Positions 21,587 through 30,090 of a stretch of DNA of 64,000 bases are shown piece by piece (within the stretch, counting starts at the first letter, position 1; the number at the start of each line of letters is the position of its first letter). This DNA comes from Rhodanobacter sp. FW104-R8. Its GTDB lineage: Bacteria > Pseudomonadota > Gammaproteobacteria > Xanthomonadales > Rhodanobacteraceae. The position numbers were made by a program, and so were the translations under genes. The notes below the pieces were generated by a model that worked only from the letters and a program-made list of their open reading frames with translations, was not told the origin of the DNA and did not search any database. Location of the stretch: NCBI RefSeq assembly GCF_001617365.1, contig NZ_LVJR01000020.1, positions 1 to 64,000 on the forward strand. Reading direction: 5' to 3'.

Positions 21587-22900
21587 TCAGTCCCCGGGCA
21601 GGTCGCAGCTCCGGTTGAAATCGCCGATGCCGGCGACCAGTTCGGCAAGCGCGGCGCGTTCGGCTTCGCTCAGGTCGGGATTCCAGCAGTCCATGATCAG
21701 CACCACGCGCGTCTCGCCGCTGCGGTTCCACGCCTCGTGCTCGAACGTGTCGTCGAAGGTGACGCAGCGGCCCTCCTGCCACTCGTGAACCTCGCCGCCC
21801 ACGTTCAGCGCGCAATCCGGCGGCACGATCAGCGGCAGATGGGTGACCAGCCGCGCGTTGGTGACGCCGCGGTGCGGCAGGATATGGGTGCCCGGCCGCA
21901 ACACCGAGAACAGCGTCTCCGGCCCGTGCTCGCGAATGCGCGACAGCGGCATCCGCTCGATCAGCGCGGCGGTTTGCGGGCAGCGGGTGCAGTGCGCGTC
22001 GTAGCGCTGGCCGTGCCGGTAGAAGAAGTAGGCGTCCCACGCCGCCTGCTGCGCTCCGGAGGCGCGCAGCATGGTCCCCATGTCCTGCGGCGAGTCGACC
22101 TTGAGGAAGGCCTCCAGGTCGCGCGGCCGCTCCAGCACCGCGCGCAGCTCCGCGCGGATCGCCGCGGTGCCGGCCTCCAGCGCCTCGAATTCCGGGAAGC
22201 GTTCGCGCGGATAGTAGGGCTGGCTGGGGATGCCCGGGAAATACAGGAACTTCGGCTGTTGCCGCGGATCGGGCAGGTCCGCCGGCTGCTCGTGCAGGTA
22301 GATCGCCAGGCACTGTTCGACGCGCCGCAGTTCCGAACGGCCGTAGCGTTCGCGCAGCGGCTCCAGGATGCCGTCGAACAAGGCATGCCGGCCGGCATCG
22401 ACGTAGCGCATGGCGTGCTTGACCGCGTCGCGCATCCCCGGCGCGGTGCTCGCGTCGCTGAGCCAGCGCCCCTGCGCCTGCGCAGAGCTGATCGCAGCGA
22501 AATACGCCACCAGCGCTTCGTGCGAGTGCCCGAGATGCTCCAGCGCCACGCCGAGTCGGAGCCGTACGGTGAAAAGCTGCGGCTCGAGATCAAGCGCCCT
22601 GCGCAGGTCGCCGGTGGCGCCCGCGTTGTCACCCGCCACCATCCGGGCCGTGCCCAGTTGATGCAGCACGCCCACGCTTTGCGGGTGTGCCTGGTGCGCA
22701 ACAAGCAGATGCTCGATCGCCCGATCCGCCTTGCCAGTCGCAAGCTCGCGCATGGCCAGGAACTGCAATGCCTCGAGGTCGGTCGGTTCGATGCCAAGAA
22801 GGCGCACGAAAGCCTGCTCCGCCACCAGCTCGTCACCGTGATTCAAGGCGAAACGCGCGCGCTCACGGTAATGCGACGTATCGAGCAGCTGTTCATTCAT
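21587..22900 (-). CDS. TPR-containing aspartyl/asparaginyl beta-hydroxylase
   Basis: This 437-residue protein has about 160 residues of TPR repeats (about 15-170, e.g. LEALQFLAMRELATGKADRAI), then a C-terminal aspartyl/asparaginyl beta-hydroxylase domain (about 260-430). Iron-ligand histidines are visible in LPHRGVTN (His343) and FEHEAW (His388). In that family, two His and water or an acidic residue hold Fe(II), with 2-oxoglutarate as cosubstrate. The TPR portion probably holds a peptide or protein substrate. It is the last gene of the receptor-linked cassette, 103 bases after the second sulfotransferase. The sequence TATCAT at 22965-22970 (minus strand) could be the -10 of a separate promoter. 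Confidence 0.85.
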   Translation of the reverse strand: MNEQLLDTSHYRERARFALNHGDELVAEQAFVRLLGIEPTDLEALQFLAMRELATGKADRAIEHLLVAHQAHPQSVGVLHQLGTARMVAGDNAGATGDLRRALDLEPQLFTVRLRLGVALEHLGHSHEALVAYFAAISSAQAQGRWLSDASTAPGMRDAVKHAMRYVDAGRHALFDGILEPLRERYGRSELRRVEQCLAIYLHEQPADLPDPRQQPKFLYFPGIPSQPYYPRERFPEFEALEAGTAAIRAELRAVLERPRDLEAFLKVDSPQDMGTMLRASGAQQAAWDAYFFYRHGQRYDAHCTRCPQTAALIERMPLSRIREHGPETLFSVLRPGTHILPHRGVTNARLVTHLPLIVPPDCALNVGGEVHEWQEGRCVTFDDTFEHEAWNRSGETRVVLIMDCWNPDLSEAERAALAELVAGIGDFNRSCDLPGD

Positions 22901-23003
22901 GGTGGGTTTGCCTGACGGGCGATGCGCGACCATGCGCGTCTGGCACGGCTTGCGGACGGCAAGCATGATAGACCGTTATCGAAGCCCTGATCCCGGGGTG
23001 TCA

Positions 23004-24386
23004 TCAGCCATCCGCATCCGCGAACTTTTCCGCCAGCTCGGGCACGAACGGCGCATACAGCCGCCAGCGTGCCACCGAGCGCCGATAGACCGGCTGGCGC
23101 GCCTGCCACATGCTGGCCGAGCTTATCGCGTATTCCCGCGACACCGGCTTGCTGGCTTCCTGCTCGCCGACTTCGCCGGGAAGGCCGAGAAATGCCCTCA
23201 GGCCAGCCATGGTTCGTTCGGGCTGTTCCACCATCTGCTCGTAGTCGACCGTGTGGATCGGCAGCACCATTCGTTGCCGCCAATGCTCCATCAGACGGTC
23301 ACAGCCCGCACCAAAGGCGGCGATATCGTCGAAATCGTACGCGTAGTCGTTGTCCATGTGGCCGAACAGCTGGCTCCAGATCGACAGGGCGTTGTCGCGG
23401 CGATTGCGTCGGCAATGGATGATCCGCGCCTGCGGAAACAAGCTGGCGATCTGCCCGAGATAGCGGAAGTTCAGCGGGTGCTTGTCCACGTACCACGTCG
23501 CCGGCGCATCGTCTTGCCGAAGATGCGCCAGGTAGATCCTGCGCGCTTCGGCGAGCGCCTGCGGATCGGCGGCAAGGCCGTGTGTTGCCAGCTGGCCCGC
23601 CAGGTAGCCGATGAACGGCATTTCGCCGCGGTTGCGCACGGCCGGGTCGCGACCGAGGCGGTCAGCCACCAGCGTGGTGCCGCTGCGCACCATGCCGACG
23701 ATGAATACCGGGATGCAGTCGGATTCCGCCTTTCCCGGCACTTGGGGCGCCCGCACCCGCAACTGGTCGGCGACGAACCTGTCCCAGTCTCCGCGCGCCC
23801 AGGCTATCGTGCTCCGCGCCAGCGCGTTCGCTTCGCGCAACAGCCCTGCTGCGCGCGCGTGATCGCCGATGTCGTCGCAGGCCTTGCCGAAAGCGAACAA
23901 GATGGATGCGCGCGCGCGCGCGGTCAGCGCCGGATCACGAAGATGCGTTTCAAACAGCGCGAAGTCGGGATGGCCAACATCGGTGTAGCGCGTAGTATTT
24001 GCCAGCGCCTGCAGCACGAACCACTCGTTGATGTTCACGCCGGTGCGCAGGGCTGCCAGATAGTGCGCGCGCGCCTCGTCGAATCGCCCCAGTTCGTGGG
24101 CGATACTCCCTGCCAGCGCGAACAACCGGGGACTTCGCTGACCGGCCCACAGCTGTTGCTCGCATACCTCGGCCGCCTGGGCGTGGCGACCGCACTCCCT
24201 GATGAACTTGGCACAATCGAACATGGCGTCCGGGTCGCCTGCATGCCTGTGCGCAAACTCCCGCATCGCGGTCGTGGCTGCCTCCAGCCGCCCCTGCGAA
24301 CGCAGCTCCGACGCCCGCGCAAAGCTGCTTGCGGCGTCGCTGGCATCAGTGAGCTGAGGCATGGGAGGATGAATCGGGTCGCTCAT
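23004..24386 (-). CDS. TPR-sulfotransferase (second copy)
   Basis: This 460-residue protein has an N-terminal TPR-like helical array (about 15-210) and a C-terminal Sulfotransfer_1/3 domain (about 228-455). The PAPS 5'-phosphosulfate loop VGMVRSGTT is clear, and the 3'-phosphate-binding region CRRNRRDNALSIW lies downstream. It would move a sulfuryl group from PAPS to a hydroxyl. TPR-ST proteins are relatives of tyrosylprotein sulfotransferases, but the substrate is unknown. No signal peptide, so cytoplasmic. Its ATG overlaps the stop of the 2OG-oxygenase gene (ATGA), showing translational coupling. Confidence 0.87.
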   Translation of the reverse strand: MSDPIHPPMPQLTDASDAASSFARASELRSQGRLEAATTAMREFAHRHAGDPDAMFDCAKFIRECGRHAQAAEVCEQQLWAGQRSPRLFALAGSIAHELGRFDEARAHYLAALRTGVNINEWFVLQALANTTRYTDVGHPDFALFETHLRDPALTARARASILFAFGKACDDIGDHARAAGLLREANALARSTIAWARGDWDRFVADQLRVRAPQVPGKAESDCIPVFIVGMVRSGTTLVADRLGRDPAVRNRGEMPFIGYLAGQLATHGLAADPQALAEARRIYLAHLRQDDAPATWYVDKHPLNFRYLGQIASLFPQARIIHCRRNRRDNALSIWSQLFGHMDNDYAYDFDDIAAFGAGCDRLMEHWRQRMVLPIHTVDYEQMVEQPERTMAGLRAFLGLPGEVGEQEASKPVSREYAISSASMWQARQPVYRRSVARWRLYAPFVPELAEKFADADG

Positions 24387-24985
24387 GCCGGCGCCGGAGG
24401 AAAGAGCAGGTAGGTCGACAGAATGTACTTGTCGCCCGATATCGGCGGACGACCGGCATGCTGGAACATCCAATAGGGCGGAAACATGAGCAGGCGCCCG
24501 GTGCGGGCACTTACCTTGATGCCCAAGTCGCAGAATTCCGTTTCGCCGCCCTTTTCCACATCATTCAGGTACCAGAGAAAAACCATATAGCGGTTGGACA
24601 CTTCCCCCAGCGAATCGAAGTGCGGCTGGAAGGCCTCGCCGCTGCCGGCGACGTAGCGCTTGATGCGCAGCGAATCCAGCAGCGTCGACGTCGGCACCGG
24701 GATGGTCAGTCCGAACTGCCGGTTGTACAGCGACAGGTAATCATCGATCTTCCGATAGAAGAAGCCCTTGAACGCATCGTCCGCCAATGGCGTGATGTCG
24801 AGTTCCGTCCACGAGCTCTCGTCCAGCCCGGCGCGCCAGCCCTTGCGGCGCGTCACATGGCGGTCCCTGGCCTGATGGAAGGAGGCGACCAACTGCTGGC
24901 AGAACGACACCGGCAACGAATCGTCGAAAACCTGCACGTAGCCGCGCAAGTCGCAGATGGGCGGGGAAACGGTTTCAGGCGTCAT
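24383..24985 (-). CDS. Prolyl-4-hydroxylase-like 2OG-Fe(II) oxygenase
   Basis: This 200-residue dioxygenase has a single double-stranded beta-helix domain. The facial triad and cosubstrate lysine are all visible: His122-x-Asp124 in PHFDSLGE, His176 in FQHAGRP, and Lys186 in GDKYILSTYL. The second half, from RYMVFLWYLND to GGETEFCDLGI, is typical of the P4Hc / PF13640 group. These enzymes hydroxylate proline or other residues in peptides, or small molecules. It sits between two sulfotransferase genes and overlaps both: its start overlaps the first (24975-24985) and its stop overlaps the second. The three are one translational unit. Confidence 0.9.
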   Translation of the reverse strand: MTPETVSPPICDLRGYVQVFDDSLPVSFCQQLVASFHQARDRHVTRRKGWRAGLDESSWTELDITPLADDAFKGFFYRKIDDYLSLYNRQFGLTIPVPTSTLLDSLRIKRYVAGSGEAFQPHFDSLGEVSNRYMVFLWYLNDVEKGGETEFCDLGIKVSARTGRLLMFPPYWMFQHAGRPPISGDKYILSTYLLFPPAPA

Positions 24986-26804
24986 AGCCCCAATGCTCCA
25001 TGACTTCCCGCAGAACCGGCAGCAATGGCTCGAATGCGCTCTCGTAGCGGCGCCACCGCCCCATCGCTTGCCTGTTGGGCGGTTGCGTCACCTGCGAATA
25101 ACTTGGCGTACTGATGAAGCCTTTTTGCCGGGCATGCTGATGGAAATTGCGCAAGGGATCTGCGTCATCCAATCCGATGAAGCTGCCGATCCGCTCCACC
25201 ATCCCGTCGAAGTCGTCCAGCAGATCCTCGTAACGCAGGTGCAGCACCTGCAGTCCCAGCAGCGCTTCGTGATGGATGACGTACTGCATGGCATGGACGT
25301 AACCGCGTGCAAGTCGTTCGAGCGACGAACACATCACCTGGAATCCGGGCGAACGGAAATCCTGCATGTAATTGCTGAGGATCACGTCGCAAGGATGGCG
25401 CAGCGCCAGAATGACCTTGGCGTCCGGGAACAGGCGCCGTATCAATGGCAGGTGCAACAGGTTCAGCGGGTTCTTGTCCACCAGCTGCTGCCCCGGCTTC
25501 AGCTGCACGACATCGGCCACCCGTGCCCAATATGCCTGCCGCAACGCTTCGCAGCGCGACTCGTCGAGTTGGCCCAGGGCCTCGGGGTAGAGCACGCCCC
25601 ATCCCTGCAGCTCTTCCACCAGTTCCTGCATGAACGGGCGCTCGTCCATCGACGCCAACGCGGGATGGGCATCGAGCATCTGCTCCAGCATGGTGGTACC
25701 GGAGCGGGGGAAGCCCACCACGAATACCGGCGAAGGCCTCGCCGCGGGCGCCAGGCCGGTGGGCCACCCGGCCACGTCGGCCGCCGTCATCCGCACCAGC
25801 GCCGGCGCCAACGGCTCCACGCCCGGAGCCATAAGCTCGGGCACCAGCTGGGCGGCGGTTTCGAGTTGCGCCGCGTGGGCCTGGGCCAGGGCATGCATGA
25901 CGGCCTCGGTGTCGCCGAGCCTGTCGCAGGCCTTCGCCAGCGCGAAGTAGAGGTTGCTGCGATGCCTGTGCTCGCGTATCTGCGCGATCAGTTGCTCCAG
26001 CTGATGTCTGGCGGCCGCCGGGTCGGCGCCGCGCATGGCCATCGTGCAGATGGCCGCCGCGACGTCCTCCCGCTCGCTGTCATCCGCCAGTGTCCGCGGT
26101 TCCGGCAGGCGCGCCAACAGGCTTCGCGCCTCGTCCAGCCGATTGACGCGCTCATACAACAGGATCAGCCTTGCGATCGTGCGCGGGCGTTCGCCGTCGA
26201 GCACCATCGCCTTGTCCAGCAGTTGCTCGGCCTCCGCCACGCGTCCCGTCTGCGAGAACAGCCAGGCCAGGTCGATGCGCAATTGCCCGTCCAGCTCCGG
26301 CCAGGCGCGCCAGTCCGCCAGCAGATGCTCCACCGCCAGGGTATCGCCGCATTCGTGCGAGACGAGCGCGGCGTTGATCCGCAAGGAAAGATCGCCGGGC
26401 TGGTGCAAGGCGGCGTCCAGCAGGAGATCGCGCGCCTGCACCAGCTCGCCGCGTTCCATGCACAACAGGCCCAGGTTGGCCTTGGCGAGGATGTCGTCCG
26501 GCTCCAGCCGCAGCGCCTGTTCATAGCATTGCTGCGCCTCCGCAAGACGCCCGACAGCACGCAGCAGGGTGCCGAAATTGCCCCAGTGCCTCCCCGCCTT
26601 CGGATAAAGCACGGTCAGCCGCTGGTAGGTTGCCAGAGCCTCGTCCATCCTCCCCTGTTGCTGCTGGGCGTAGGCCAGCCACAACAGCGCGGACTCGTCA
26701 TCGGGAATGGCCTGCAGCCAACCCCGGCATTCGCGTTCCGCACGGACCGCATCGCCAGCCTCCAGCGCCTGCCGAATGCGTTCGTTGTTGCCGGTTACTG
26801 TCAT
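24975..26804 (-). CDS. TPR-sulfotransferase (first copy)
   Basis: This 609-residue protein has a long TPR superhelix (about 10-330, e.g. AEQLLDKAM and GRLAEAQQCYEQALRLEPDDILAKANLGLLC-type repeats) followed by a sulfotransferase domain (about 355-600). The PAPS loop is VGFPRSGTT, and LRHPCDVILSNY is the 3'-phosphate-binding strand/helix. It is larger than the second copy and not a recent duplicate of it. The ATG at 26804 is chosen because longer readings enter the terminator hairpin. A GGAG lies just upstream. The substrate is unknown; the TPR part suggests a protein or peptide. Confidence 0.88.
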   Translation of the reverse strand: MTVTGNNERIRQALEAGDAVRAERECRGWLQAIPDDESALLWLAYAQQQQGRMDEALATYQRLTVLYPKAGRHWGNFGTLLRAVGRLAEAQQCYEQALRLEPDDILAKANLGLLCMERGELVQARDLLLDAALHQPGDLSLRINAALVSHECGDTLAVEHLLADWRAWPELDGQLRIDLAWLFSQTGRVAEAEQLLDKAMVLDGERPRTIARLILLYERVNRLDEARSLLARLPEPRTLADDSEREDVAAAICTMAMRGADPAAARHQLEQLIAQIREHRHRSNLYFALAKACDRLGDTEAVMHALAQAHAAQLETAAQLVPELMAPGVEPLAPALVRMTAADVAGWPTGLAPAARPSPVFVVGFPRSGTTMLEQMLDAHPALASMDERPFMQELVEELQGWGVLYPEALGQLDESRCEALRQAYWARVADVVQLKPGQQLVDKNPLNLLHLPLIRRLFPDAKVILALRHPCDVILSNYMQDFRSPGFQVMCSSLERLARGYVHAMQYVIHHEALLGLQVLHLRYEDLLDDFDGMVERIGSFIGLDDADPLRNFHQHARQKGFISTPSYSQVTQPPNRQAMGRWRRYESAFEPLLPVLREVMEHWGYDA

Positions 26805-26825
26805 GGTCTGGTCGCCGTGCTCCAG

Positions 26826-26859
26826 AAAAAAAAGCCGCGCGGCTTGCACCGCGCGGCTT
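26826..26859 (-). terminator. Terminator between the TonB receptor and its enzyme genes
   Basis: On the minus strand, a 9-base-pair stem (AAGCCGCGC / GCGCGGCTT, 10-base loop) is followed by eight U residues, with some overlap between stem and U-tract. It lies 30 bases past the receptor stop and only 21 bases before the ATG of the first sulfotransferase. Downstream expression therefore needs read-through or a promoter upstream of the hairpin. TAGAAT (26862-26867, minus) is a possible -10, but its -35 is poor. Confidence 0.85.
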
Positions 26860-26888
26860 CAATTCTAGCGAAACAGCCTGCTAGAGGA

Positions 26889-29747
26889 TCAGAACTTCAC
26901 GGTCACACCGGCGAAGAAGTAGCGGCCGATGGTGTCGTACGTGTTCACGTCGGTGTTCGCGTTGAGCACGTTGTTCTGGTACATCAGCGGCGGCTGCTTG
27001 TCGAACACGTTGTCAACACCGGCGTTCAGCGTGGTGTTCCACCGGGCGATGTTGTAGGCGACCGCGAAGTCGTTGTAGATCATCGTCGGCACCCGCAGGA
27101 CCACGTTCGGCAACGATTGATCCGCGCTGAAGGTCTCGGTGGTATTGCGCGAACCGACGTTCAGGGCGCCGAAGTAGCGCATCTTCCACGTCGCGCTCCA
27201 CGGGCCGGTGCTCCAGTTCAGCATGCCGACGCCGCGCCAGCGGGTGTAGTTGCCGTAGCCGTTGTTGTACATGCCCGCAAGGTGGTTGATCACGTCGCCG
27301 GCCTGGCCCGGGGCGGTATCGTTGTCGTACTTGATCAGGTAGGTGGTGTTCAACGACAGCGCGAAGTCGCCGATGTTGGTGCCGGCTACGTCGAAGTGCG
27401 GGATCTTGTACTTCCCGGTGAAGTCGATGCCGCTGGTGTTCAGCGTGCCCAGGTTCACCGTCGGCGAGTTGATGAAGAGGATCTGGCCCGTGTCGTCGCG
27501 GTGGATGAAGCTGCAGAACGGGCTGCTGCCGTTCGCGTAGCAGATCGACATGGTGTTCTGCACGCCGAGCGGGGTGATCGTGTCGTTCAGGTGCACGCGC
27601 CAGTAATCGGCACTCAGCGACAGGCCCGGGATGAAATGCGGGTCGTACACCGCGCCGAAGTCGAACGACTTGCCGTATTCCGGCTTCAGGTTGTAGCCGG
27701 CGGCCACCGAGCCCGACACCACGGCCGTGGTCTGACCCAGGCCCGAGCCCTTGAACGAACCGTTGGTCGGCACGTTCGCGCATGCGGCCGCATGGCCGCC
27801 GGTGTAGCCGATGCAGGGATCGGTCAGCTGCGGCGCCGAGCCGGCCGCGCCGGCGTACAGGTCGCTGATGGTCGGCGCACGGAACACGCCCTCCATCGTG
27901 CCGCGTACCAGCAGGTCGTCAACCGGGCGCCACTCGAGCGCCACCTTGTTGGAGGTGCGGCTGCCCGCCGAGGAATAGCTCGAATAACGCGAGCCCAGGG
28001 TCAGGTTCAGCGACTTGATGCCCGGCAGGCCGGTCAGCAGCGGCACGAACAGCTCGCCGTAGACTTCCTTCACGTTGAAGGAGCCCGCCAGCGGCGTGGC
28101 GCAGGCCTCCTGCGAGATGAAGCAGGTGCCGCCGGTGCCGCTGGTCCGGGCGATGTAGTCGACCTGGGTGTTCTGGTAGTCCTTCTCGTAGTCGGCGCCG
28201 ACCGCCAGCGAGACCGTGCCAGCCGGCAGGCTGAACAGGTCGCCGTTCGCGTTGACTTCGGCGCGGCGGGTGGTGATCAGGGTATGGCCGAACGGAGCCG
28301 CCGCATAGTTGCCCAGCGTGCTGACCGTCTGGGGGTCATTCACGTTGAAGATGTTCAGCGGGGTGCAGCCGGAGACCGGCGCGGTCGGCGTGCCGCAGGT
28401 CACCTTGCCGGAAACCGGGTCCAGGAACGACGGACCCAGGGCCGACTTCAGGCCGTTGTAGTACACGTAGCCATGCTGAACCGTATCCTGGCCGACGTGG
28501 CCGTAGTTGAGGTCAGCGGACCACTGCCAGCTGGTGTCGCCCACGGAGCCCTTCAGGCCGGCGTCCACCTGGCCGGTCTGGGTCGCGAAATCCTCCATGC
28601 GCTGGCCCAGCGTGGTGAAGCGGCTGCGGAAGGTCCTGCCGCCCGGCCCGAAATTGATGCCGAACGGGTTGTAGTAGTTCTGGGCCGAGACCACCACGCC
28701 GTCGCTCTTCGCGTCGAATGGCAGCGGGGCGATCGCGAAGTGCGAGCTGGTCTTGTTGTAGAAGAAGTCCAGATGGGCCTGGAGATTGTCGGTCACCTGG
28801 TAGGTTGCCAGCGCAAACGCGTTGAAGCGTTCCTGCGGCGTGGTGATCAGGTTCACCGCCTGGTAGTTGAACGAGTCGGTCTTGGAGTTGTACGGACGAT
28901 AGTCGCTCGTCGAGGTCTTGCCGTTCACCGGATGCGCCAGCGTGACCGGTCCGGTCGGCAGACTGACGTAGCCGTTGGGGTTGCGGCTGGAACCGCCGTG
29001 ATACACCGAACCGCTCGACAGGTAGGTGGCGTACTTGGAGAAGTCGCGCTTGGCCGAGGAGATTTCATCGAACTTGTTGTAGTCGATGCCCGCCGTGATG
29101 CTGCCCTTGTCGCCGGCGGTGCCGAAGAGGGCCGAGAAGCCGCGGCGGGTACCGTCGTTGTGGTCGGATTCGCCGACGTTGGCGCTGAGCTCGAGGCCCT
29201 GGAAATTCTTGCGCAGGATGAAGTTCACCACGCCGCCGATCGCGTCCGAACCGTACGTGGCCGACGCACCGTCCTTCAGGACTTCGATGCGGTCGATCAT
29301 GCTGGCCGGGATCGCGTTGATGTCGTTGCGGGCGACGCGGTGGCCGTTCACCAGGATCAGGGTGCGCTGGGAGCCCAAGCCACGCAGCGATACGGTCGAG
29401 GCACCGTCACCACCGCCGTTGTTGACGTTCGGGTTGGTCGCCGCGCCCGCTACCGCGGGGAGTTCCTGCAGCAGATCGCCGGCCGTCAGCTTGCCGCTGG
29501 ACTTGATCTCCTCGCGCGTCACGGTAGTGACGGGGTTGGCCGTTTCGAGGTCGACGCGGCGAATGCGCGAACCGGTGACCACCACGGTCTGCAGCGTCTT
29601 GGCATTCTGCTGATCAGCCGGCTGGTTGTTTTGCTGACCGCTCGTATCCTGCGCGAAGGCCGAAGTGGACACGCCCACCGCGATGACAGCACCCAGCGAA
29701 AGGCCGAGACGGACCGCCGAAGAAAGTTTCTTGACCCCAAGTTTCAT
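26889..29747 (-). CDS. TonB-dependent outer-membrane receptor
   Basis: This 952-residue receptor has a signal peptide (1-32, ending SAFAQ), a Gln/Asn-rich linker, a TonB-box-like segment TLQTVVVTG (about 51-59), a plug domain (about 60-190, with LRGLGSQRTLILVNGHRV), and a 22-stranded barrel ending in the aromatic VTVKF. It takes up a ligand at the outer membrane using TonB-ExbBD energy. The plug and barrel are of the long TonB type abundant in Xanthomonadales, Caulobacterales and sphingomonads, without ferric-siderophore hallmarks. A GGAGG site is 8 bases from the ATG. The downstream sulfotransferase and hydroxylase genes suggest a peptide-like or modified substrate, or modification of the receptor; both are inference. 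Confidence 0.92.
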   Translation of the reverse strand: MKLGVKKLSSAVRLGLSLGAVIAVGVSTSAFAQDTSGQQNNQPADQQNAKTLQTVVVTGSRIRRVDLETANPVTTVTREEIKSSGKLTAGDLLQELPAVAGAATNPNVNNGGGDGASTVSLRGLGSQRTLILVNGHRVARNDINAIPASMIDRIEVLKDGASATYGSDAIGGVVNFILRKNFQGLELSANVGESDHNDGTRRGFSALFGTAGDKGSITAGIDYNKFDEISSAKRDFSKYATYLSSGSVYHGGSSRNPNGYVSLPTGPVTLAHPVNGKTSTSDYRPYNSKTDSFNYQAVNLITTPQERFNAFALATYQVTDNLQAHLDFFYNKTSSHFAIAPLPFDAKSDGVVVSAQNYYNPFGINFGPGGRTFRSRFTTLGQRMEDFATQTGQVDAGLKGSVGDTSWQWSADLNYGHVGQDTVQHGYVYYNGLKSALGPSFLDPVSGKVTCGTPTAPVSGCTPLNIFNVNDPQTVSTLGNYAAAPFGHTLITTRRAEVNANGDLFSLPAGTVSLAVGADYEKDYQNTQVDYIARTSGTGGTCFISQEACATPLAGSFNVKEVYGELFVPLLTGLPGIKSLNLTLGSRYSSYSSAGSRTSNKVALEWRPVDDLLVRGTMEGVFRAPTISDLYAGAAGSAPQLTDPCIGYTGGHAAACANVPTNGSFKGSGLGQTTAVVSGSVAAGYNLKPEYGKSFDFGAVYDPHFIPGLSLSADYWRVHLNDTITPLGVQNTMSICYANGSSPFCSFIHRDDTGQILFINSPTVNLGTLNTSGIDFTGKYKIPHFDVAGTNIGDFALSLNTTYLIKYDNDTAPGQAGDVINHLAGMYNNGYGNYTRWRGVGMLNWSTGPWSATWKMRYFGALNVGSRNTTETFSADQSLPNVVLRVPTMIYNDFAVAYNIARWNTTLNAGVDNVFDKQPPLMYQNNVLNANTDVNTYDTIGRYFFAGVTVKF

Positions 29748-30000: not shown

Positions 30001-30028
30001 TTATTACGCTTCATTTACGCATTGTCAA
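30001..30028 (-). promoter_or_regulatory. Sigma70-like promoter for the TonB receptor
   Basis: Reading the minus strand, TTGACA (30028-30023) is a perfect -35. It is followed after 16 bases by TAATAA (30006-30001) as a weak -10. A TGCGTAA box lies inside the spacer, where a bound regulator would compete with RNA polymerase. The perfect -35 and AT-rich context support it; the -10 is poor. Confidence 0.5.
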
Positions 30029-30090
30029 CAAATTTTCTATAGCAAGAATTTACGCATTCACGATTATCTTGTGCGTAAAAACTTACGCAT
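30004..30090. promoter_or_regulatory. Cluster of TTACGCA boxes, candidate operator
   Basis: TTACGCA occurs at 30015-30021, 30050-30056 and 30083-30089, and inverted (TGCGTAA) at 30072-30078. A partial copy TTACGCT is at 30004. The first two full copies are identical over ten bases (TTTACGCATT). The last two form an inverted repeat TGCGTAA-AAAC-TTACGCA. Direct copies are about 33-35 bases apart, near three helical turns. The arrangement suggests cooperative binding of an unidentified regulator over the receptor promoter. Confidence 0.6.

Follow-up and report, generated by a model that had tools for sequence, protein, structure and literature searches.

Five genes lie together on the minus strand between positions 21587 and 29747 of the window (the 64-kb stretch of DNA analysed here) and form one unit, whose products are four enzymes (two sulfotransferases, a TPR-hydroxylase and a 2OG-Fe(II) oxygenase) and one TonB-dependent receptor (TBDR). 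All five open reading frames (ORFs) were recovered at the positions and on the strand given in the preliminary description, which had claimed five consecutive minus-strand genes. The first gene of the unit (26889-29747) encodes the TBDR, a protein of 952 aa with Plug and TBDR barrel domains, as seen with Pfam and in an AlphaFold model. It is followed, in Pfam assignments, by the first TPR-sulfotransferase (24975-26849), which combines a PF13469 domain (Sulfotransfer_3, 6.5e-38) with TPR and has its TPST-like catalytic part at residues 374-601; by a stand-alone 2OG-Fe(II) oxygenase resembling prolyl 4-hydroxylases (24383-24985; PF13640, 2OG-FeII_Oxy_3, 2.3e-10); by the second sulfotransferase (23004-24473; PF13469, Sulfotransfer_3, 6.6e-35); and by a TPR protein similar to Asp/Asn beta-hydroxylases (21587-22966; PF05118, Asp_Arg_Hydrox, 2e-48).

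The overlap described earlier for the three central genes is real but small once the likelier starts are used, which are internal Met codons at 26804 in the first sulfotransferase and at 24386 in the second: the second sulfotransferase then overlaps the oxygenase stop by 4 nt, and the oxygenase overlaps the first sulfotransferase by 11 nt. This is the pattern of coupled operons. The hydroxylase gene does not overlap its neighbour (gap of 37 nt or more). The eight flanking genes that were checked, with a glutaredoxin-rhodanese protein on one side and a nucleoside phosphorylase family protein and DegV on the other, are unrelated to the unit.

Upstream of the TBDR, at 30015-30089, are four TGCGTAA/TTACGCA heptamers, two of which form the palindrome TGCGTAAGTTTTTACGCA (18 bp). 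The heptamer occurs nowhere else in the 64-kb window than within these 75 bp. The palindrome is absent upstream of the other 119 TBDRs scanned, two of which have a single heptamer. The cluster is likely to be an operator for some regulator.

Relatives and catalytic residues of the four enzymes

Both window sulfotransferases exceed the Pfam cut-off for PF13469, a family that is not restricted to protein substrates. A sequence search against solved structures gave TPST2 as the best catalytic-domain match of the first (1.7e-12) and TPST1 as that of the second (2.4e-5). The conserved Glu and the PAPS-binding motifs of TPST1 and TPST2 align with the window proteins, but the similarity amounts to only about 50 bits for the first and 27 bits for the second, which leaves tyrosine specificity putative, and TPSTs are Golgi enzymes that are not known to carry TPR. 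The features of PF13469/TPST-like enzymes are present, namely a P-loop (PRSGTT), the conserved Glu, an Arg at the 3'-phosphate site and a Lys. Among the sulfotransferase homologues in the fetched loci, the Glu and the P-loop Arg are each kept in 234/235, the 3'-site Arg in 235/235 and the Lys in 231/235; in these and the other residue counts over enzyme homologues some proteins are counted twice, as identical enzyme proteins were not merged. TPR arrays had been attributed to three of the four enzymes. The array is strong in the first sulfotransferase, but the matches in the second all fall below the Pfam cut-off; in the hydroxylase the best match lies at the cut-off (27.1 against 27 bits), and the model has a helical array over residues 30-223.

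The HxD...H...K motif of the oxygenase, said to be complete, corresponds to H122, D124, H176 and K186 and is kept in 92/92 oxygenase ORFs of the fetched loci. The best solved match of this protein is a prolyl 4-hydroxylase (2.4e-6), and all five matches at E <= 1 are prolyl hydroxylases. We regard the enzyme as prolyl-4-hydroxylase-like by sequence, with peptidyl-proline as a putative substrate.

The two ligand histidines expected of the beta-hydroxylase were located at H365 and H410. By sequence its best solved match is human AspH, an ER enzyme (4.2e-30), and its AlphaFold model (pLDDT 93.5) shows a helical-repeat array and an oxygenase domain. The TPR array is N-terminal to the PF05118 oxygenase, the same domains in the same order as in AspH, and the oxygenase domains of the two proteins superpose with a TM score of 0.83 at 30% identity. 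Set against the residues named for AspH (PMC6817910), the window protein keeps the Fe histidines and the equivalents of the 2OG-binding Ser668, His690 and Arg735, but has Leu in place of Lys666, a ligand of the substrate carboxylate, and Val in place of Arg688, a 2OG contact. Given these two replacements the target residue may not be Asp or Asn, and the protein may act in the manner of AspH while not being classed as an Asp/Asn hydroxylase. Superposition of the whole chains is poor (TM about 0.4, rmsd 18-20 Å), and AspH itself moves upon substrate binding (PMC6817910). Both iron histidines are present in 85 of the 97 hydroxylase homologues, one in three and none in nine.

The nearest solved relatives of the enzymes, TPST, prolyl 4-hydroxylase and AspH, support the peptide- or protein-type chemistry proposed earlier. 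A different reading makes the substrate a small molecule or a lipid handled by the TBDR, for example a lipid bearing hydroxyl and sulfate groups or a ligand of the siderophore kind. PF05118 also includes lipid hydroxylases, and PF13469 as a family extends beyond proteins; the scores of the PF05118 protein (P0001) to OlsC and LpxO (112.8 and 77 bits) are far below the cut-offs for these two (450 and 500). The TPR on the first sulfotransferase and on the hydroxylase argues for polypeptide binding instead, with a precedent in AspH, whose TPR is required for hydroxylating a protein substrate (PMC6817910), and no small-molecule biosynthetic gene set was recognised by eye among the neighbour clusters. 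We consider this small-molecule reading improbable.

Linkage and modularity across genomes

The association of the enzymes with the receptor was borne out by the neighbourhood comparison in 60 genomes, a set that includes the window's own genome and genes and in which sulfotransferase, hydroxylase and receptor were searched separately. First-sulfotransferase homologues lie within 3 kb of 51/65 TBDRs of the same subfamily as the window receptor, against 0/40 of the other TBDRs (E <= 1e-100), of which 1/40 has such a sulfotransferase within 15 kb. In the reverse direction, 51/58 first-sulfotransferase homologues lie within 3 kb of a subfamily TBDR, and 39 of the 40 best TPR-hydroxylase matches are within 15 kb of a first-sulfotransferase homologue. 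In these counts each search scored part of its candidates per genome, coordinates were copied by hand, and TBDR matches in two halves were merged and fragments kept; the 14 subfamily TBDRs without a near sulfotransferase include seven from a single genome (G022), and some are at contig ends.

Named records were scanned for the oxygenase family, and the best 80 of 116 stretches gave 79 loci; they come from Rhodanobacter, Dyella, Xanthomonas, Pseudoxanthomonas, Lysobacter, Rudaea, Dokdonella, Steroidobacter-type bacteria and MAGs. Of these loci 47, mostly of Xanthomonadales-type bacteria and again from the best 80 of 116 stretches, have at least 9 kb on both sides of the oxygenase, and within 9 kb a sulfotransferase is present in 42/47, a subfamily TBDR in 40/47, both together in 40/47 and a hydroxylase homologue (dead ones included) in 29; all 47 have either a sulfotransferase or a TPR-PF05118 homologue. 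Three of the fetched loci (L051, L054 and L055) duplicate the records of L032, L031 and L030, in that order. The oxygenase itself is sparsely distributed: a sample of 398 genomes from across the phylum gave five with a match at E <= 1e-20, one of the five being the window's genome, and a match is missing in 31/36 genomes of the same genus. One oxygenase locus is labelled outside the Proteobacteria names, a MAG record labelled Edaphobacter aggregans in which TBDR, sulfotransferase and oxygenase share a 5.6-kb contig (L103), and this is a case of mis-binning or transfer.

Gene order and strand vary between groups of loci, and this variation speaks against simple inheritance of a single block. 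Of 20 loci outside the order with distant TPR-sulfotransferase homologues, which cover 21 of the 27 distant matches listed and are in several cases truncated by contig ends, two gave a TBDR with the subfamily profiles; the TBDR link is thus a feature of the Xanthomonadales-type group. The comparisons of order and strand, of module content and of the oxygenase-tracking residues described below use loci mostly fetched around enzyme matches and are biased towards enzyme presence, the 60-genome comparison less so. The functional link of the enzymes with the TBDR subfamily is thus supported by two-way linkage and by the conserved oxygenase loci. As for the five-gene set as a unit, its linkage to the TBDR is conserved, but its composition varies, the second sulfotransferase and the hydroxylase being present in some cases and missing in others.

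Within the genus the unit occupies two chromosomal sites with variable content. When TBDRs of identical sequence were merged, the commonest core was receptor plus sulfotransferase; the hydroxylase is frequent, and the oxygenase and extra sulfotransferases are optional. The window's genome has a second, minimal copy of this kind (receptor plus sulfotransferase) on contig C118. The host genome (3.72 Mb) has seven PF13469 matches, two of them in the five-gene unit, and this concentration, together with linkage conserved in relatives, takes the grouping beyond chance. It could still be held that receptor and enzymes merely share a chromosomal hotspot and have no joint biochemical function, since the third-position GC of the unit (0.78-0.90) is below that of its flanks (about 0.92-0.97) and the content of the site varies between congeners. 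The association recurs, however, in different families and at two or more chromosomal sites, with differing order and strand, and is specific to one TBDR subfamily; we regard a shared hotspot as very improbable.

Hydroxylation and sulfation, a pairing proposed earlier on chemical grounds, are joined physically in one relative, where PF05118 is fused to PF13469 in a single ORF (L033:7431-9413); that island has six sulfotransferase ORFs, the fusion included. In three other loci (L114, L115 and L119) a methyltransferase is fused to the TPR-hydroxylase. An otherwise complete module in another relative (L044:7903-12748) includes genes for an accessory methyltransferase and for a protein of PF02129 (X-Pro dipeptidyl-peptidase S15), and three relatives have a neighbour that resembles, by eye, an M1 aminopeptidase. 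A RiPP recognition element suspected by eye on the accessory methyltransferase was rejected, its N-terminal part having no Pfam or NCBIfam match at loose E-values. Short PF05118 proteins lie beside the core in 10/79 loci, and a second kind of PF13640 protein in 5/79 (one representative of each was confirmed).

Nine TPR-PF05118 proteins lack both iron histidines (in L059, L061, L062, L063, L080, L090, L096, L102 and L112). The gene of each stands directly upstream of an intact oxygenase gene on the same strand and either overlaps it or ends no more than 9 nt before it, and this arrangement suggests that the catalytically dead proteins serve as scaffolds. Lacking a TPR of its own, the small oxygenase would, we infer, reach its substrate via the TPR domain of a partner. 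Four of these loci are sulfotransferase islands, with a TBDR in view in three; around the other five pairs neither a sulfotransferase nor a subfamily TBDR occurs within 9 kb. Four of the five were inspected, and three of them adjoin apparent rluD and pgeF genes (by eye).

The TBDR is the commonest non-enzyme member of the loci. To call it the only non-enzyme partner is too strong, given an uncharacterised protein of about 285-375 aa, with no Pfam match and a signal peptide by eye, that is encoded upstream of the TBDR in 22/79 named loci, on the same strand and with a gap of up to 2.1 kb (for example L059:3-980, L062:2907-3935 and L078:1290-2423). It is possibly a further partner; eight of the 22 copies directly follow an Hsp33 gene (one Hsp33 was confirmed), on which account it may instead be a resident gene of the site. 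A homologue was found in 24/159 loci searched and is missing from the window's locus.

The receptor and the search for a substrate

The AlphaFold model of the TBDR (pLDDT 82) has a generic TBDR fold, and Foldseek gave matches to generic TBDRs only (PfeA, FepA, BtuB), with no ligand class to be read from the structure. Comparison of 62 receptors that occur with the oxygenase and 58 that occur without it identified five residues that accompany the enzyme: G111, R255, Q296, D345 and Y427. At D345, for example, the frequency is 0.95 in the former and 0.03 in the latter. Four of the five (R255, Q296, D345 and Y427) are predicted to lie in extracellular loops L2-L4, as read from the strands of the model. 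The oxygenase changes state only three times on the tree, and in three independent pairs the tracking residues change in the same direction in 1.2-1.8 and in the opposite direction in 0-0.1 on average; the correlation is not significant, since a sign test with three state changes cannot reach significance. The five residues differ in chemical type; they may serve as sites of modification or of recognition, or may line a ligand pocket.

For the hydroxylase, which has 14 state changes, no TBDR residue shows convincing tracking (best 30 of 42 candidate columns; 99/120 rows had a state, and some zeros were set by hand). The best column changes in the same direction in 3.0, in the opposite direction in 0.1 and not at all in 5.8. 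Three loop tyrosines are commoner in enzyme-linked TBDRs (n=79; Y242 0.65 and Y244 0.76, both in L2, and Y937 0.70 in L11) than in orphan TBDRs (n=9; 0.11, 0.22 and 0.33, respectively); the window TBDR has Ser at 244.

Some members of the receptor subfamily stand apart from the enzymes. For two TBDRs of more than 50% identity (G025:C8 and G004:C1), the 20 kb fetched gave no match to any of these enzyme families. G022 has ten TBDR matches to the window receptor at E <= 1e-100 (fetched loci L132-L136). Seven of the ten belong to the subfamily and have no sulfotransferase nearby, and several of those fetched adjoin ORFs that resemble, by eye, amidohydrolases, a cyanophycinase-like protein and M28/M14 peptidases, which may reflect an expansion for peptide scavenging. 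The orphan receptor on G025:C8 (L129) has neighbours that look like a GH35-type beta-galactosidase and a GH127-type enzyme, which suggests plant glycan uptake. Overall, unlinked subfamily receptors in L129, L132 and L134-L136 lie near peptidase-, amidohydrolase- or glycosidase-like genes (by eye), and those in L130, L131 and L137 do not. From the neighbours of several unlinked members we infer that the receptor subfamily imports nutrients; sulfation and hydroxylation may be an add-on for some members.

A conserved precursor was sought among 1533 ORFs of 18-120 aa in 137 loci, with ORFs of at least 100 aa called as genes masked, and none was found; the largest cluster covers four loci. The 25 clusters listed in another scan of small ORFs read, on inspection by eye, as antisense or frame-shifted pieces of flanking genes. 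No exporter-like gene was seen by eye among the 25 neighbour clusters present in at least 5/79 loci, and no signal peptide was seen by eye on the enzymes. It is possible that a peptide is encoded elsewhere, or inside a called ORF of at least 100 aa.

We take the conserved receptor-plus-modification module to be real, with modification of a polypeptide as its most likely chemistry, judging from the sequence relationships. Our best explanation, held tentatively, is that the TBDR chain itself is hydroxylated or sulfated before export. In this scheme, cytoplasmic PAPS-dependent TPST-like sulfotransferases, the prolyl-4-hydroxylase-like oxygenase and the AspH-like TPR-hydroxylase would hydroxylate and sulfate one polypeptide, held by the TPR domains during modification. 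The likeliest polypeptide would be the TBDR chain, modified ahead of Sec export at residues that become extracellular loops, and the sulfate or hydroxyl groups of the folded receptor would then change the binding of ligand or phage. We counted in favour of receptor modification the two-way linkage, the specificity of the TBDR link to the group, the conserved catalytic residues and the fusions; the lack of a small ORF cluster common to more than four loci, together with the distance of 247 kb between the enzymes (L043) and the only subfamily receptor match (L137) in genome G038; and the position of four oxygenase-tracking residues in loops L2-L4. We counted against it that no residue convincingly tracks the hydroxylase and that the oxygenase-tracking residues could be a ligand pocket; that TBDRs more than 50% identical occur without the enzymes, and a pseudohydroxylase and oxygenase pair without a TBDR; and that the exported-looking protein lies upstream of the TBDR in 22/79 named loci.

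That protein also bears on the main competitor, in which the enzymes work on a distinct substrate, a small peptide or protein (RiPP-like, or an exported partner) that is encoded elsewhere or is too variable to be detected, and that is exported and then recognised or imported by the TBDR. The five oxygenase-tracking residues, in the plug and loops L2-L4, could form one binding site for it, and the S15 peptidase with a methyltransferase in one relative and the M1-like neighbours in three would suit peptide handling. Methanobactin operons do join a precursor, a TBDT and, in two of them, the sulfotransferase MbnS (PMC3621798). Against this reading stand the small-ORF result, with no cluster common to more than 4/137 loci, the absence of an exporter-like cluster by eye, the unmatched N-terminal part of the methyltransferase and the window's locus, where the exported-looking protein has no homologue. 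We give this possibility something over a third of the weight, and the receptor as substrate is favoured over it narrowly, the two being nearly even. A fuller version of receptor modification, in which Xanthomonadales-type bacteria decorate an outer-membrane TonB receptor with hydroxyl and sulfate groups, TPR enzymes hold the unfolded chain in the cytoplasm, the oxygenase borrows the TPR of a partner (catalytically dead scaffold hydroxylases among them) and the modified extracellular loops set ligand choice or hide the receptor from phage, is somewhat less likely than either.

Comparison with known systems

No published description of this gene set was found in a literature search outside which most subscription papers and all preprints lay, and a query combining tetratricopeptide, sulfotransferase and TonB-dependent receptor returned only a paper on sialic acid use by gut microbes. 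The bacterial sulfated peptides known to us are RaxX and methanobactin. Methanobactin operons (MbnA-MbnB, MbnT, MbnS) resemble the unit in that one operon, centred on a modified peptide, can include both a TonB-dependent transporter and a sulfotransferase (PMC3621798). The window differs in having no MbnA/MbnB-like gene among its five genes and the eight flanking genes, in sulfotransferases whose best match is PF13469 and in the addition of two 2OG oxygenases. PF05114 (MbnB/TglH/ChrH) genes are present elsewhere in the window's genome (C28:12652-13440 and C23:22717-23514).

The comparison drawn earlier with RaxST/RaxX of Xanthomonas holds only as an analogy, that of a bacterial sulfotransferase acting on a polypeptide: no RaxX-like precursor cluster was found among the small ORFs scanned, no exporter was recognised by eye among the neighbour clusters, and the unit adds TPR, hydroxylases and a TBDR. 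HMW1C and OGT offer a likeness of another kind, a helical-repeat or TPR domain that holds a polypeptide, and HMW1C glycosylates an adhesin in the cytoplasm ahead of export; the similarity seen here is of TPR units with OGT only, and the chemistry is glycosyl transfer rather than hydroxylation and sulfation. The grouping points to a little-explored chemical decoration of a surface receptor, or of a peptide recognised by the receptor, and would bring either a further level of receptor specificity or sulfated peptides of a new class. One TBDR subfamily is tied to a conserved set of several enzymes in Rhodanobacter, Dyella, Xanthomonas, Pseudoxanthomonas, Lysobacter and Steroidobacter-type bacteria, so that the target of the TPR-enzymes is directly testable in soil strains that are easy to work with. 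Protein sulfation and AspH-like hydroxylation are known chiefly from the eukaryotic secretory pathway, and the unit, if the fuller reading is true, would be a bacterial equivalent of the way in which eukaryotes hydroxylate and sulfate their secreted and surface proteins.
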